Positions 32,096-59,498 of a stretch of DNA of 64,000 nt are shown in pieces. Made by a program: the position numbers and the translations under genes. Source of the DNA: a virus; the IMG/VR virus record IMGVR_UViG_3300013233_000093, positions 124,001-188,000 of that record; one strand, written 5' to 3'. Under the pieces are notes generated by a model that ran no database searches, was not told the origin of the DNA, and saw nothing but the letters and a program-made list of their open reading frames with translations. Position 1 is the first letter of the stretch. Every line of letters begins with the position of its first letter.

Positions 32096-33532
32096 ATGAG
32101 AGATATATACGCACGTAACATGAGTGTTAACACCGATTCATACAAGGTCACCATGCCACCGCAGTACCCACCAGGTACTACTAACATTTGGGACTACATT
32201 GAATCTCGAGGCGGTCTGTACGATGCCACTTTGTTTTGCGGTATCCAGGCGTACCTCAAAGAGTATCTATCCATTCCCGTGACTAAGGAAATGGTGGATT
32301 TCTCCGAGGTCTTTTGGAAGGCACATGGTGTGCGCTATGATCGTGCCCAGTGGGATTACGTTGTAGAAAACCATGATGGCTTACTGCCTCTGGAGATCAG
32401 AGCGCTTCCAGAAGGCACCGTCTTGAAAACCCGTAACATTCTTGTCAGTGTGGTAAACACAGATGAGAAATGTAAATGGGCTACTACGTGGATCGAGAAG
32501 TCTTTACTGCGTGCTGTATGGTACGCGACATCTGTCGCTACTGTGTCGTACAACATCAAGAAAGACATCGCGCGGTTCTTACGTGACACCTCAGATGCAG
32601 GCATGATGGATCTGCGTTACATGTTACATGACTTTGGTGGACGGGGCGTAAGCTCCTTTGAATCCGCCGGTCTTGGCAGCATGGCGCATGGCTTATGTTT
32701 CGGTGGTACAGATACCCCTGAAGGCATCTTGGCTTCTATGGAGTATTATAACTCCGATGTAGCCAGTCACTCTTTATGGGGGGCTATGGAGCACAGTACG
32801 GTTACGTCTTGGGGCCGCGAAAACGAACGCCTGTCGTATGCAAACATGATCGATGAGTTTGCCGTCCCTAACGGTAAGTTTGCGATGCTGATCGATTCGT
32901 ACGATGTGTTCCACGCTGCACGGGTGATTATCGGTGAAGAGCTTCGCCAAAAGATCATCGACTGCGGCGCGCAGGTGATACTACGTCCTGACTCGGGAGA
33001 TCCTGTAACAGTGATGTTAGAGCTTCTGGAGATCCTGGGTGAGAAGTTTGGATACGACGTCAACAGTAAGGGGTATAAGATGCTCCGTACGGTGAGTTTG
33101 ATCCAAGGCGATGGCGTTTGTCACGATACCATCCTTAAGATGCTACAGGCCATTAAGGACGCTGGATGGGCTACGCTTAATGTAAGTTACGGCATGGGCG
33201 GTGCGCTACTGCAGATTCCAGATCGTGACATGCAGAAGTTTGCCATGAAGTGCAGCGCCATTAAAGTAAACGGTGAGTGGCGTACCGTGTATAAAGATCC
33301 TATCACAGATAAGGGCAAGCGTTCTAAAGCAGGACGTCTCGATCTTGTCAAGGGATGGGATGATACTGCGCGTGACAACTACTTTACCGATGTCATCGGC
33401 GATGAACCGCGCCCCAATAGTCTTTTGCGGACTGTCTGGCGTAACGGCAAGTTGCTGGTGGATGACGATTATAAGATGCTTCGTGATCGCGCCGGGTGGA
33501 ACGACTCCATAGAAGACTTTATAACTCGTTAG
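32096..33532 (+). CDS. nadV: Nicotinamide phosphoribosyltransferase (NadV)
   Basis: Joins nicotinamide to PRPP to give NMN, the substrate of the upstream gene product, completing a two-step route from nicotinamide to NAD+. The 478-residue protein has the type-II phosphoribosyltransferase form: SVNTDSYKVTMPPQYPPGTT at the start, the central MLHDFGGRGVSSFESAG (about 178-194), ILRPDSGDPV (about 299-308) and NVSYGMGGALLQ (about 362-373). All are characteristic of NAMPT/NadV. The pair matches the phage NAD+ reconstitution route (NARP2) reported to defeat NAD-depleting defences. It is closed by a terminator. Confidence 0.95.
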   Translation: MRDIYARNMSVNTDSYKVTMPPQYPPGTTNIWDYIESRGGLYDATLFCGIQAYLKEYLSIPVTKEMVDFSEVFWKAHGVRYDRAQWDYVVENHDGLLPLEIRALPEGTVLKTRNILVSVVNTDEKCKWATTWIEKSLLRAVWYATSVATVSYNIKKDIARFLRDTSDAGMMDLRYMLHDFGGRGVSSFESAGLGSMAHGLCFGGTDTPEGILASMEYYNSDVASHSLWGAMEHSTVTSWGRENERLSYANMIDEFAVPNGKFAMLIDSYDVFHAARVIIGEELRQKIIDCGAQVILRPDSGDPVTVMLELLEILGEKFGYDVNSKGYKMLRTVSLIQGDGVCHDTILKMLQAIKDAGWATLNVSYGMGGALLQIPDRDMQKFAMKCSAIKVNGEWRTVYKDPITDKGKRSKAGRLDLVKGWDDTARDNYFTDVIGDEPRPNSLLRTVWRNGKLLVDDDYKMLRDRAGWNDSIEDFITR

Positions 33533-43924: not shown

Positions 43925-44487
43925 ACGTCAATTATGTAATGTCATTGTTCATATCGGACATCATAAAGCCGTGTGCGGGTAAAGCTGTTTTACGCTGTGA
44001 CGAGGTAGACAAGCCCAGTACCGTGCGCATGTACGAGGCTTACCTTTTGCAGTGCAAAAGTCCAATGATTGACATTGGTCATTTGAACAGCGAGCAGAAG
44101 AAGTTACTTGCGGACGTATACAGTTCATGTAACATGCATCATGCGCTTGGTAAATACCCCTTGGCATTAGGGGACACGCATTATGCGAGATCAAAAACAC
44201 CGTTTGGTGAGATGGTCAATCGTATCCGCATTAGCAATAACGTGGATATACATGAGTTTGTAAAGGGACTTAGCATCAGTCGGTCTCACTTCCGCGGGGT
44301 TTGTCAAGGCACATACACACCTCGCGTCGATTATGCCACGCGCATTGCCACCATGATGCGCCTGGGTGATGACGAGTACAAGGCCCTAGTGCGGACGTAT
44401 TTTGATTCATACGATCGATTAGCAGTACGCCCTAACACTGGCTTTGCTGCTTACGCCGCCGAGTTGATCGTGAACGCATACGACTAA
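43921..44487 (+). CDS. HTH-type regulator, 188 aa (paralogue of previous)
   Basis: ATGA overlap with the previous gene. HTH at about 105-145: VNRIRISNNVDIHEFVKGLS, ISRSHFRGVCQGTYTPRVDY. Paralogous to its neighbour over ~150 residues, with conserved helix pairs, shorter at the N-terminus. Followed by a very strong terminator. Confidence 0.75.
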   Translation: MNVNYVMSLFISDIIKPCAGKAVLRCDEVDKPSTVRMYEAYLLQCKSPMIDIGHLNSEQKKLLADVYSSCNMHHALGKYPLALGDTHYARSKTPFGEMVNRIRISNNVDIHEFVKGLSISRSHFRGVCQGTYTPRVDYATRIATMMRLGDDEYKALVRTYFDSYDRLAVRPNTGFAAYAAELIVNAYD

Positions 44488-51368: not shown

Positions 51369-51456
51369 GCTATATTACCTTAGTGAGGCATGCGACCTTG
51401 CATGTTGTAACCATAGGTGCCATAACCTACAAAGATAGGTATGGTAAGTGAAGAGT
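51369..51456 (+). promoter_or_regulatory. Variant promoter (copy 10) and structured leader with competing hairpins
   Basis: CTATATTACCTTAGTGA is followed at once by CATGC-gacctt-GCATG (51389-51404), then by a segment where ACCTA (51425-51429) can pair with TAGGT on either side (51414-51418 or 51436-51440), enclosed by ACCATA/TATGGT (51410-51415 with 51440-51445). Two mutually exclusive folds just before a start codon are the layout of an attenuator or translational switch. The function is inferred. Confidence 0.55.
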
Positions 51457-51630
51457 ATGAAATTAGATGTAGAGTCTCTACTGATCGCCGTTGTGGCGGT
51501 CGTTGTTCTTGTCGGGTGTTTTGCACCTGACGCTTCCACAGGTCGTACTTATAAAGAGTACGGCCCTTCTGAAACAGAAGCGGCGCAGTTGCGTCGCGAT
51601 TATGGGCCTGCGAGGCCCAAAGGATATTAA
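51457..51630 (+). CDS. Small predicted lipoprotein, 57 aa
   Basis: ATG behind GTGAAGAGT. MKLDVESLLIAVVAVVVLVG then C: LVGC is a normal lipobox, so the protein should be lipidated at Cys21 (approximately) and placed in the envelope. The mature part of ~35 residues is polar and Pro/Tyr-containing (TYKEYGPSETEAAQLRRDYG). Size and type would suit an outer-membrane spanin, but no inner-membrane spanin is recognised beside it. The gene contains several perfect short hairpins, continuing the chain of the next gene. Confidence 0.65.
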   Translation: MKLDVESLLIAVVAVVVLVGCFAPDASTGRTYKEYGPSETEAAQLRRDYGPARPKGY

Positions 51631-51632
51631 AA

Positions 51633-52442
51633 ATGTTTGTTGCCCGTAACTACAACGCCAAGGCTAGCATTAGCCTTGGCGTATTAACCAGTGAGGGGGA
51701 TGTGTCTGTTGCACTGTCCCCCTCACTGAGAGGAGTGGAACACGGCTACGCAGTGATCGCCACTCTGCGGGGAGGTGCCATGAAAGCACTAGCCCCAGCT
51801 GGCCGTGTGCTGGAAGCCTGCACAGGTTTCCAGGTATTTACCAGAGATGGTAAATACCTTGTTCTAGGCACTGCTGTCGGTGACGACAGTGCTTATATCC
51901 GTCTCTTCAACCGCTATGGTAAAAACATAGCGGCCGTGTTCGAGGCGGGAGACGTAGATTCTTTTACGTTCTCCTCCTCATTTCTGGAGTCCATTATTAA
52001 TGGACTCTTGGTGGCCTCTGGGAATTTTCCCAGAGAGTCACAGTGGGGGCGCAAGTCCTTCTCTTCCAAGACCAGCGATGGCTTGGATCCATGCATGCCC
52101 AAACTGGGCACCCAGAGCACCCAGGCGGGTACAATGCAGGTAAACGGTGATATGAAGAATATCACCATCGACATCACCACCCGTGAGGGGAAAGTGATGG
52201 CGTTGAAAGCGCTTAAGAAGCACACCCGCACCGCCTACAGTGTGTCCGACGATCTGTCCATGGTAGTATGTGCACAGCAAAACGCTGCGGGAGATCATTT
52301 CCGCAGTAAACTGTCAGTCTACACCTTCGGTGATGGAGAGTATCTCCACACCGCTACGGTGTGGCTGCCCGTCGATCACGACGGGGTTATGGGTCACACA
52401 GAAATGTGTGACCGGGTCGGCCACATGTTAAGAGGAGGCTAA
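51633..52442 (+). CDS. Propeller-like protein encoded by a chain of stem-loops, 269 aa
   Basis: Blade-like units: FQVFTRDGKYLVLGTAVGDD (about 68-87), AYSVSDDLSMVVCAQQNAAG (about 204-223) and SKLSVYTFGDGEYLHTATVW. The mRNA is exceptional: perfect or nearly perfect stems follow one another (51656-51681, 51689-51728, 51833-51858, 51868-51892, 51911-51933, 51987-52007, 52016-52035, 52146-52166, 52285-52306, 52346-52364, 52368-52385, 52392-52413), several of 8 to 12 bp. The neighbouring propeller genes lack this. The protein is otherwise an ordinary soluble member of the family. Start follows AAAGGATATTAAAA. Confidence 0.65.
   Translation: MFVARNYNAKASISLGVLTSEGDVSVALSPSLRGVEHGYAVIATLRGGAMKALAPAGRVLEACTGFQVFTRDGKYLVLGTAVGDDSAYIRLFNRYGKNIAAVFEAGDVDSFTFSSSFLESIINGLLVASGNFPRESQWGRKSFSSKTSDGLDPCMPKLGTQSTQAGTMQVNGDMKNITIDITTREGKVMALKALKKHTRTAYSVSDDLSMVVCAQQNAAGDHFRSKLSVYTFGDGEYLHTATVWLPVDHDGVMGHTEMCDRVGHMLRGG
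51656..52413 (+). repeat. Chain of inverted repeats within coding sequence
   Basis: At least nine perfect stems of 8 bp or more lie in ~760 bases. With 4 to the minus 8 per position and about 14 loop sizes, chance would give well below one. The longest are 11 bp (51656-51666 with 51671-51681) and 12 bp (51689-51700 with 51717-51728). Confidence 0.9.
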
Positions 52443-52460
52443 ATATTGATGTTGGTTAGA

Positions 52461-52508
52461 TAGGTTGACGTTACATACGTCAACCTAGCCTATGTCTTTA
52501 TTTTTTAT
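52461..52508 (+). terminator. Rho-independent terminator
   Basis: Eleven-bp perfect stem (52461-52471 with 52477-52487) followed by a T-rich tail. Ends the lipoprotein and stem-loop-chain unit. Confidence 0.88.
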
Positions 52509-52513
52509 TTTTT

Positions 52514-58468: not shown

Positions 58469-58556
58469 CTATATTACTTTAGTGATACTTAGGTAATAAT
58501 ACTTAGGTGCACTGTTATAACTAATAGATCTCTTACTAGAGATCAAAGGATAAAGA
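58469..58556 (+). promoter_or_regulatory. Variant promoter (copy 11) and leader hairpin
   Basis: CTATATTACTTTAGTGA, one base from the variant at 51369. GATACTTAGGTAAT and ATACTTAGGTGCA repeat behind it. A 7-bp stem GATCTCT/AGAGATC (58527-58533 with 58538-58544) stands just before the ribosome-binding site AAAGGATAAAGATT. Confidence 0.6.
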
Positions 58557-58558
58557 TT

Positions 58559-59428
58559 ATGTTTAAAATGATTAAAAGGTTGTTTGCCTGGATTAAGAAA
58601 CTTCCAGTAATTGTACAAATTATGGTATTGGTTGTAGCCCTGCCCCTGGCTGCCGCGGCAGCTGTGGCATATGCAGTAACAATTGCAATGGTTTTAGTTT
58701 GGACATGCACGGTTACACTCGCACAATTGTGTGCGAGTGTAACTGCCAAGGGACACCTCTACAGAGTAACCACACCAGACGGCATGGTCGGGTACATCGG
58801 AGGTACCGTCCACAGTATGGTGCAGGCGCCGATGAAGTATATCCGCGCCGTCCGCGCAACTGGTAATTTGCTGGTGGAATACCGGGGATGTTGGGTTAAG
58901 GAAAACGCTGTCGAAATTGCGGGGCTTAAGCAGAAGTTCTCTCCGGAGATTCCGGTCGAGCATTTGGTTGAAATGGAGGTAGAGAATGCTATTGCCCCTT
59001 TAACCCAGCTCCTGTTTGGCGGGTTGTTGACAATGGAGCGTACCCTTGAACGACATGCTGATAGCAAGTCGGCTGAGGTAGAGGACTTGCCTTCTATGGC
59101 CATGCACTTGGATAGCATCCAGTGCCTAACGCCGCTGTACGCGGCGCGTACAGCGGCCATCGGCGCGTTTGCGAGCACAGCGGCGTTTGTAAAGACGGCG
59201 TATGCCATTACGTACAAGGGCACAACGCCATTAGGCACCCATCTTTGTATGGGTGAGTCGTACGGCCTTAACAGCCGCAGCGCCATTCAGGCGCTGCGGC
59301 TGATGGACGAGCTGGATGCCGGCCGTCCAGCCACTTTGATGGTCGGCGTGCTCCACCTGTACGCAGGAGGCCCATTCGCCTGCCTTGAGGTCTTAAAAGA
59401 CAGAGGCTGCAAAATCGAACGCATGTAA
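58559..59428 (+). CDS. TraB/GumN-family protein encoded by a stem-loop chain, 289 aa
   Basis: TraB/PrgY/GumN proteins are putative metallo-peptidases with a GTxH motif near the start and a GHLxG-type motif at the end. Here LYRVTTPDGMVGYIGGTVHS (about 67-86, GTVH 82-85) and MVGVLHLYAGGPFACLEVLK (about 261-280) are visible. The N-terminus is basic with one or two membrane helices (about 15-58). The mRNA has perfect stems at 58712-58743 (14 bp), 59064-59090 (7), 59104-59125 (9 with a bulge), 59131-59157 (12), 59236-59255 (7), 59273-59301 (12), 59416-59437 (8, crossing the stop codon). A phage version of this family is unusual. Confidence 0.65.
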   Translation: MFKMIKRLFAWIKKLPVIVQIMVLVVALPLAAAAAVAYAVTIAMVLVWTCTVTLAQLCASVTAKGHLYRVTTPDGMVGYIGGTVHSMVQAPMKYIRAVRATGNLLVEYRGCWVKENAVEIAGLKQKFSPEIPVEHLVEMEVENAIAPLTQLLFGGLLTMERTLERHADSKSAEVEDLPSMAMHLDSIQCLTPLYAARTAAIGAFASTAAFVKTAYAITYKGTTPLGTHLCMGESYGLNSRSAIQALRLMDELDAGRPATLMVGVLHLYAGGPFACLEVLKDRGCKIERM

Positions 59429-59438: not shown

Positions 59439-59479
59439 AGATCTCCTCCGTTTAGGCGGGGGAGATCTTTTTTTTTTTT
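59439..59479 (+). terminator. Strong rho-independent terminator
   Basis: Eight-bp AGATCTCC stem (59439-59446 with 59461-59468) followed by a run of about 12 T. Confidence 0.92.
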
Positions 59480-59498
59480 GCGTTTACAGCATAGACTC

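Follow-up and report, generated by a model that had tools for sequence, protein, structure and literature searches.

The 64,000-nt window analyzed here (record positions 124,001-188,000 of the virus record IMGVR_UViG_3300013233_000093) raises the question of why one protein-coding gene, 51633-52442, is spelled as a succession of perfect stem-loops, and whether the cause lies with its RNA, its DNA, or the way in which the sequence arose. Coordinates without a prefix refer to the window, and "genome" denotes positions of the record, a DNA contig of 222,906 bp (~223 kb) with 241 predicted genes. Judged by its gene content, the virus is a phiKZ-like jumbo phage that encodes its own RNA polymerase: RNA polymerase beta-type subunits are present (PHROG families phrog_3148, 3295, 2987, and 3015). 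Phages of the phiKZ type are known for a nucleus-like compartment. The virus does not belong to the RNA phages (Leviviricetes), as a 223-kb DNA contig carries the gene and 110 phage genes have a homologue in one of two relatives, G002 or G003. Gene calls followed a simple longest-ORF rule, and at least two units (98455 and 198928) were mis-called by it. All structures are computational predictions; folding energies were computed on 90-nt tiles and compared with shuffles that preserve the protein and the codon usage, but not the dinucleotides across codon borders.

The nine perfect stems of 8-12 bp described in the initial annotation were all recovered at the positions given there, whereas 0.45 would be expected from codon-preserving shuffles of the gene (stems >=8 bp, loops <=20). 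In the coding sequence of the whole phage, 96 stems of this class were observed vs 55 expected. Local folding of the gene reaches -37.2 kcal/100 nt vs -26.0 expected (z = -10.9; -10.4 to -12.0 in reruns), and in the comparison with the other phage genes, which had been named as a check, it is the most extreme of the 241 (mean z -1.4, SD 1.6). The third rank belongs to the lipoprotein ORF directly upstream, for which structure had also been reported correctly (z -4.1 from the ATG start at 51457, -6.6 for the longer ORF). The neighboring propeller genes had been described as free of the pattern; they are indeed far less structured (genome 176514: -0.7; genome 177608: -3.6 to -4.4), although a mild excess is phage-wide. 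In 51633-52442, 67% of bases are paired, the median pair span is 19 nt vs 35 in shuffles, and the longest unpaired run is 11 nt vs 17. Such short spans and short unpaired runs point to many local hairpins in series instead of a single large fold. Codon usage equals the phage average in frame 1 and is far lower in the other frames, so the reading frame is real. The codon phase of the stems (codon-to-codon in six of the nine) was discarded as a signal because shuffles of the gene favor the same phase.

By folding energy, the gene exceeds all 1,937 predicted genes of seven other phiKZ-like phages. No comparable stem set occurs among the 1,528 predicted genes of phiKZ, 201phi2-1, BONAISHI, VP4B, and Proteus phage 10, and the strongest excess in these five is -8.9 kcal/100 nt (a 213-nt ORF) vs about -11.2 here. 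The corresponding maximum in G002 and G003 is -9.6 kcal/100 nt, in a 195-nt ORF (L190:4083-4277, that is, G003 44083-44277). Set against the RNA phage MS2, the gene folds as RNA-phage genes do (z -10.4 vs -4.2 to -10.3), with a similar share of G-U pairs (9.2% vs 7-11%); its energy excess is larger (about -11.3 kcal/100 nt vs -4.8 to -7.3 for three MS2 genes), and perfect stems of >=8 bp number nine here but 0-1 in each MS2 gene. The codon-preserving nulls, the comparison phages, and the MS2 control thus strongly support the earlier proposal of a constraint beyond the protein, and we regard it as nearly certain that some extra constraint or special origin exists.

The structure has definite limits. 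A sliding folding profile stays at background until ~51500, is strongly negative to ~52000, becomes negative again at ~52280-52500 with a gap at 52160-52280, and lies at background beyond 52520. The structured region matches a single transcription unit: promoter, lipoprotein gene, 269-aa gene, and terminator (Table 1). This match was missing from the initial annotation, as were gene 58559-59428 and the promoter common to both units. A hairpin with a U-tract, as in intrinsic terminators, stands at the end of each unit. Along the transcript, no 25-nt window is more open than the lipoprotein start region, and a ribosome-site-like AAAGGAT precedes the ATG of 51633-52442. An assembly artefact was considered and rejected, as many short unrelated stems matched to one transcription unit are unlike chimeric inverted repeats. 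The propeller fold of the 269-aa protein is suggested by FTRDGKYL and SDD-type motifs only, with no significant match in Pfam, and its AlphaFold2 models (pLDDT 43.7 and 34.7) are too low in confidence to interpret.

Table 1. Predicted features of the two structured units (window coordinates)
Feature	Position	Strand	Basis
Early-type promoter core CTATATTACCTTAGTGA of the structured unit	51370-51386	+	core common to five other units
5'-proximal transcript hairpin	51387-51406	+	MFE fold, mean pair probability 0.93
57-aa lipoprotein gene, lipobox LVGC	51457-51630	+	ORF, translation; z -4.1
Lipoprotein-gene hairpins	51482-51502, 51511-51531, 51541-51565, 51567-51579, 51580-51597, 51603-51619	+	fold
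269-aa gene, chain of local hairpins	51633-52442	+	z -10 to -12
12-bp perfect hairpin, loop GCAT	51655-51682	+	stem search, fold
12-bp perfect stem, 17 pairs in fold	51689-51728	+	stem search, fold
8-bp hairpin, one G-U pair	51812-51831	+	fold
12-bp perfect hairpin, GAGA (GNRA) loop; codes for propeller-like conserved motif QVFTRDGKYL	51832-51859	+	
13-pair hairpin	51865-51895	+	fold
8-bp perfect hairpin	51911-51933	+	stem search, fold
10-pair hairpin	51949-51973	+	fold
11-pair hairpin, 10-bp perfect core 51987-52007	51984-52010	+	stem search, fold
13-pair hairpin, 9-bp perfect core 52016-52035	52011-52041	+	stem search, fold
8-bp perfect hairpin	52146-52166	+	stem search, fold
9-pair hairpin, two G-U pairs	52284-52307	+	fold
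8-bp perfect hairpin, in competition with larger fold 52315-52367	52346-52364	+	
7-bp hairpin CCCGTCG/CGACGGG	52368-52385	+	fold
9-bp perfect hairpin, GAAA (GNRA) loop	52392-52413	+	stem search, fold
Terminator-like 11-bp hairpin (52461-52487), then T-rich tract; unit end	52461-52512	+	
Promoter core CTATATTACTTTAGTGA of the second structured unit, in near-identical ~90-bp leader	58469-58485	+	
289-aa gene, second most structured in the phage	58559-59428	+	z -6 to -7.6
Terminator of the second unit, GC-rich stem and T-tract	59439-59480	+	

Searches for homologues of the 269-aa protein by tblastn (phages, plasmids) and in Pfam, PHROGs, PDB, and viral or bacterial contigs gave none. The relatives G002 and G003 were found through alignment of the virion polymerase. 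Both keep the gene order of the propeller region and, one gene upstream of its first gene, encode homologues of 302 and 278 aa, respectively. The similarity is weak but consistent (pairwise E 0.002 and 9e-6 to the 269-aa protein, 1e-4 mutually); the proteins are ~20% identical to the 269-aa product, and the stems are not alignable. A 61-aa lipoprotein-like ORF precedes the G002 homologue in the same arrangement as 51457-51630, and the G002 lipoprotein gene is the second of 207 by excess. A profile of the three homologues was run against 40 other related contigs and gave no additional member. Another candidate relative, G001, first chosen for its nicotinamide phosphoribosyltransferase (NAMPT), was dropped, as only three genes are in common: its NAMPT is 47% identical to that encoded at 32096-33532, and this otherwise unrelated large virus gave two further weak matches only.

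The initial annotation had proposed conserved stems in relatives as a check on the constraint, and the outcome goes partly against it: neither homologue contains the chain, the G002 gene being modestly structured (z -3.7) and the G003 gene ordinary (z -1.5). Because the syntenic homologues lack the chain, the hairpins arose in this lineage; the chain is lineage-specific and results mostly from the re-spelling of a conserved protein gene. The gene, at 269 aa, is shorter than both homologues, and only two of its residues have no aligned partner; therefore, the stems were not inserted. Thus, within the earlier interpretation the extra constraint stands, whereas an origin by inserted inverted duplication is disfavored. 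Nor is there a private insertion of the Rickettsia palindromic element type relative to the homologues.

Another route is mutational: template switching or quasipalindrome repair may have written perfect inverted repeats into the existing gene, leaving a folded RNA without benefit. Several observations agree with it, namely stems longer and more perfect than in MS2, near-equal folding of both strands, an SbcC-like palindrome-nuclease subunit encoded by the phage, and left arms of strong stems that are less homologue-like (mean BLOSUM -0.01+-0.24) than the rest (0.71+-0.18). However, with homologues no shorter than the gene, nothing was inserted, and the derived arm is inconsistent, as amino-acid scores point to the right arm and conservation to the left. 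Moreover, the conserved motif VFTRDGKYL is spelled by a 12-bp stem, the gaps are filled by many weaker G-U-containing hairpins, and the effect on genes with a common promoter is left unexplained. We consider a purely mutational origin unlikely, although it is the most probable of the alternatives.

The published promoter motifs are TATATTAC for phiKZ and BTATATTACDWHDGTG for 201phi2-1 (PMC7058600). The sequence CTATATTACyTTAGTGA occurs at 51370 and 58469, and by this motif both promoters are probably of the early type. Five other units have the 51370-type core (genome 16191, 64231, 98455, 121452, and 182470, the last being window 58470), and the leader around the core is near-identical among these five. 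The only other unit in the window with such a promoter contains the second most structured gene, 58559-59428, with stems at 58712-58743 (14 bp), 59131-59157 (13 bp), and 59272-59302 (13 bp). The GTVH...GVLHL pattern of its product recalls the TraB/GumN family; a Pfam search with this protein gave no match. A weakly similar protein is encoded at G003 97340-97942 (phmmer E 0.0012), also behind a repeated leader.

The z-scores of the seven coding sequences behind this first core are -0.6, -3.7, -4.2, -2.4, -4.1, -10.6, and -6.4. The main early-like core, TTCAAAACTATATCACTATTATGAT, has ~24 sites genome-wide (e.g., window 778, 17591, 33605, 35997, and 39953), and the genes behind it have a mean z of -1.4; the first-core class is more structured (p = 0.002, a post hoc comparison with n = 7 coding sequences). 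As three of the seven were first noticed via their hairpins, the fair test concerns the other four, for which p = 0.04 by z and 0.009 by excess. Outside the two structured units, most first-core units are likewise raised, but one coding sequence (genome 16282) is ordinary in folding. In G003, structure is also raised in four genes behind a repeated leader (p = 0.005 by excess, 0.05 by z), and in G002 the 14 genes behind the ordinary early leader are not (p = 0.44). The association between the first-core promoter and coding-sequence structure is therefore suggestive.

The ~90-bp leaders contain ATACTTAGGTAATAATACTTAGGT, a AGATCTCT-AGAGATC hairpin, and AAAGGA, and the genes behind them are small and unrelated or weakly related. 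Leaders of this kind, but with the other core, also stand at genome 34642 and 198928, and in G003 a short, strongly structured ORF (127855-128172, that is, L194:7855-8172; excess -8.9 kcal/100 nt) follows a repeated leader. The leader-bearing small genes, most of which end with a GC stem and a T-tract, form a family of self-contained units. At most TTCAAAACTATATCACTATTATGAT sites, a variable 5'-proximal hairpin follows (e.g., GGACAACGTGTTGTTGTC), and early transcripts may accordingly be hairpin-capped. The phage also has a multi-copy gene family (genome 36765, 66926, 68622, 91497, 199554, and 201043); several copies match at 80% identity or more in part of their length, and an upstream palindrome, AGATCAGCTCCTTAAGGAGCTGATCT or a close variant, and a GTATATTAC site are common to at least four. 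Viral contigs searched for the promoter leaders and a repeated palindrome gave no match.

Both strands of 51633-52442 fold strongly (z -12.0 sense vs -9.7 antisense; antisense range -9.3 to -9.9). The strongest stems contain Watson-Crick pairs alone, a pattern that a cause at the DNA level would produce as well. MS2, which is selected as RNA, likewise shows near strand symmetry, so the weak asymmetry here is no argument against RNA. Two weak signs favor the sense RNA: (i) the sense z is more negative than the antisense z in all seven first-core coding sequences vs 62% of background genes, and (ii) GNRA loops account for three of the eight stable tetraloops on the sense strand of the gene, five of 96 in background genes, and none of five on the antisense strand. 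The remaining promoter-class genes lack GNRA loops. A strand test on interrupted helices had almost no data, as the strong stems are uninterrupted. On balance, the constraint probably acts on RNA.

The remaining alternatives are given in order of decreasing probability. Hairpins could tune translation by slowing ribosomes or limiting the output of a low-need or slow-folding protein. The dense stems do lie within the reading frame, and strong-stem codons score below the gene average (synonymous score), but structure also covers the lipoprotein gene while the start of this first gene is kept open, and we find such tuning distinctly unlikely. It is quite improbable that the folded mRNA has a second role in binding of phage or host proteins, in transport or localization, or as a decoy: a structure level above that of MS2 genes, which belong to a packaged RNA genome, and the GNRA loops would fit, but no stem or loop sequence recurs among the hairpins, and a search of Rfam 15 for a structured RNA family gave 22.7 bits at best, on the opposite strand, vs 39 needed. 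A function at the DNA level (cruciforms, a hairpin-recognizing polymerase, or packaging signals) would accord with the near strand symmetry, but is very improbable given the lack of a recurring sequence, the coincidence of the structured limits with a transcription unit, and the sense-strand hints.

We favor, tentatively and at a little less than an even chance, the explanation that the sense mRNA was selected for dense local hairpins, which most plausibly protect an early transcript. The stretch 51370-52512 would be a self-contained early-type unit whose coding sequence was re-spelled in this lineage, mostly via codon choice. Its mRNA would fold during synthesis into short local hairpins that follow one another almost without gaps, with the start region of the first gene kept open for ribosomes. 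The chain, together with the hairpins at the 5' and 3' ends, may make the early transcript longer-lived or nuclease-resistant. What computation shows directly is the excess of structure, where it begins and ends, and that the homologues lack it; from this we infer that selection acts on the sense RNA and, with less support, that a longer-lived or nuclease-resistant transcript is the benefit. Protection as the benefit is itself a tentative choice, somewhat short of even. It is preferred because hairpins also mark both transcript ends and, by analogy, because structured coding sequence lengthens half-life elsewhere (PMC6883848). Among the causes listed in the initial annotation, mRNA protection is the best option. 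It is a point against protection that RNase E-type RNWUU sites in 51633-52442 show neither specific depletion nor concealment (8 vs 9.7+-2.5).

Selection for structure within coding sequences usually shows up as a weak statistical trend across many genes, or in RNA viruses. Here, the signal of a single DNA-phage gene is stronger than that of MS2, and it is missing from the homologues encoded by related phages. The gene and its homologues provide a clean natural comparison for the role of dense mRNA hairpins in a bacterial cell, the candidate roles being transcript lifetime, translation, resistance to RNA-targeting defenses, and the handling of early transcripts. In a broader and more doubtful version, a dsDNA phage may have re-spelled a conserved cassette so that its early mRNA became an armored, RNA-virus-like folded molecule within a promoter-defined, hairpin-rich transcript class. 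If so, the mRNA fold would be a selected trait of particular phage transcripts.

Known systems share parts of this picture. Phage morons are self-contained promoter-gene-terminator units, and the 58559 unit resembles them in having its own promoter and terminator and no homologue between its syntenic neighbors in G002 or G003. The 51633 cassette, in contrast, is not an insertion, as a homologue occupies the same place in both relatives. With the early units of phiKZ-like phages (virion RNA polymerase), the structured units share the TATATTAC core, a short leader, and an adjacent terminator, and the phage likewise encodes beta-type multisubunit phage RNA polymerase subunits; the published promoters were defined upstream of the gene, whereas hairpins across a whole coding sequence are undescribed in the searchable literature. 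In designed eGFP mRNAs, a structured coding sequence can lengthen the functional half-life (PMC6883848); there, too, in-frame structure is set by synonymous spelling, but those mRNAs were designed and used outside bacteria, whereas the phage case is natural. The RNA itself resembles that of RNA phages (MS2, Leviviricetes), whose coding sequence is also under strong added constraint for dense local hairpins with a similar G-U share; here, however, the hairpins are confined to one or two units of a dsDNA phage, with longer and more perfect stems and a larger excess.
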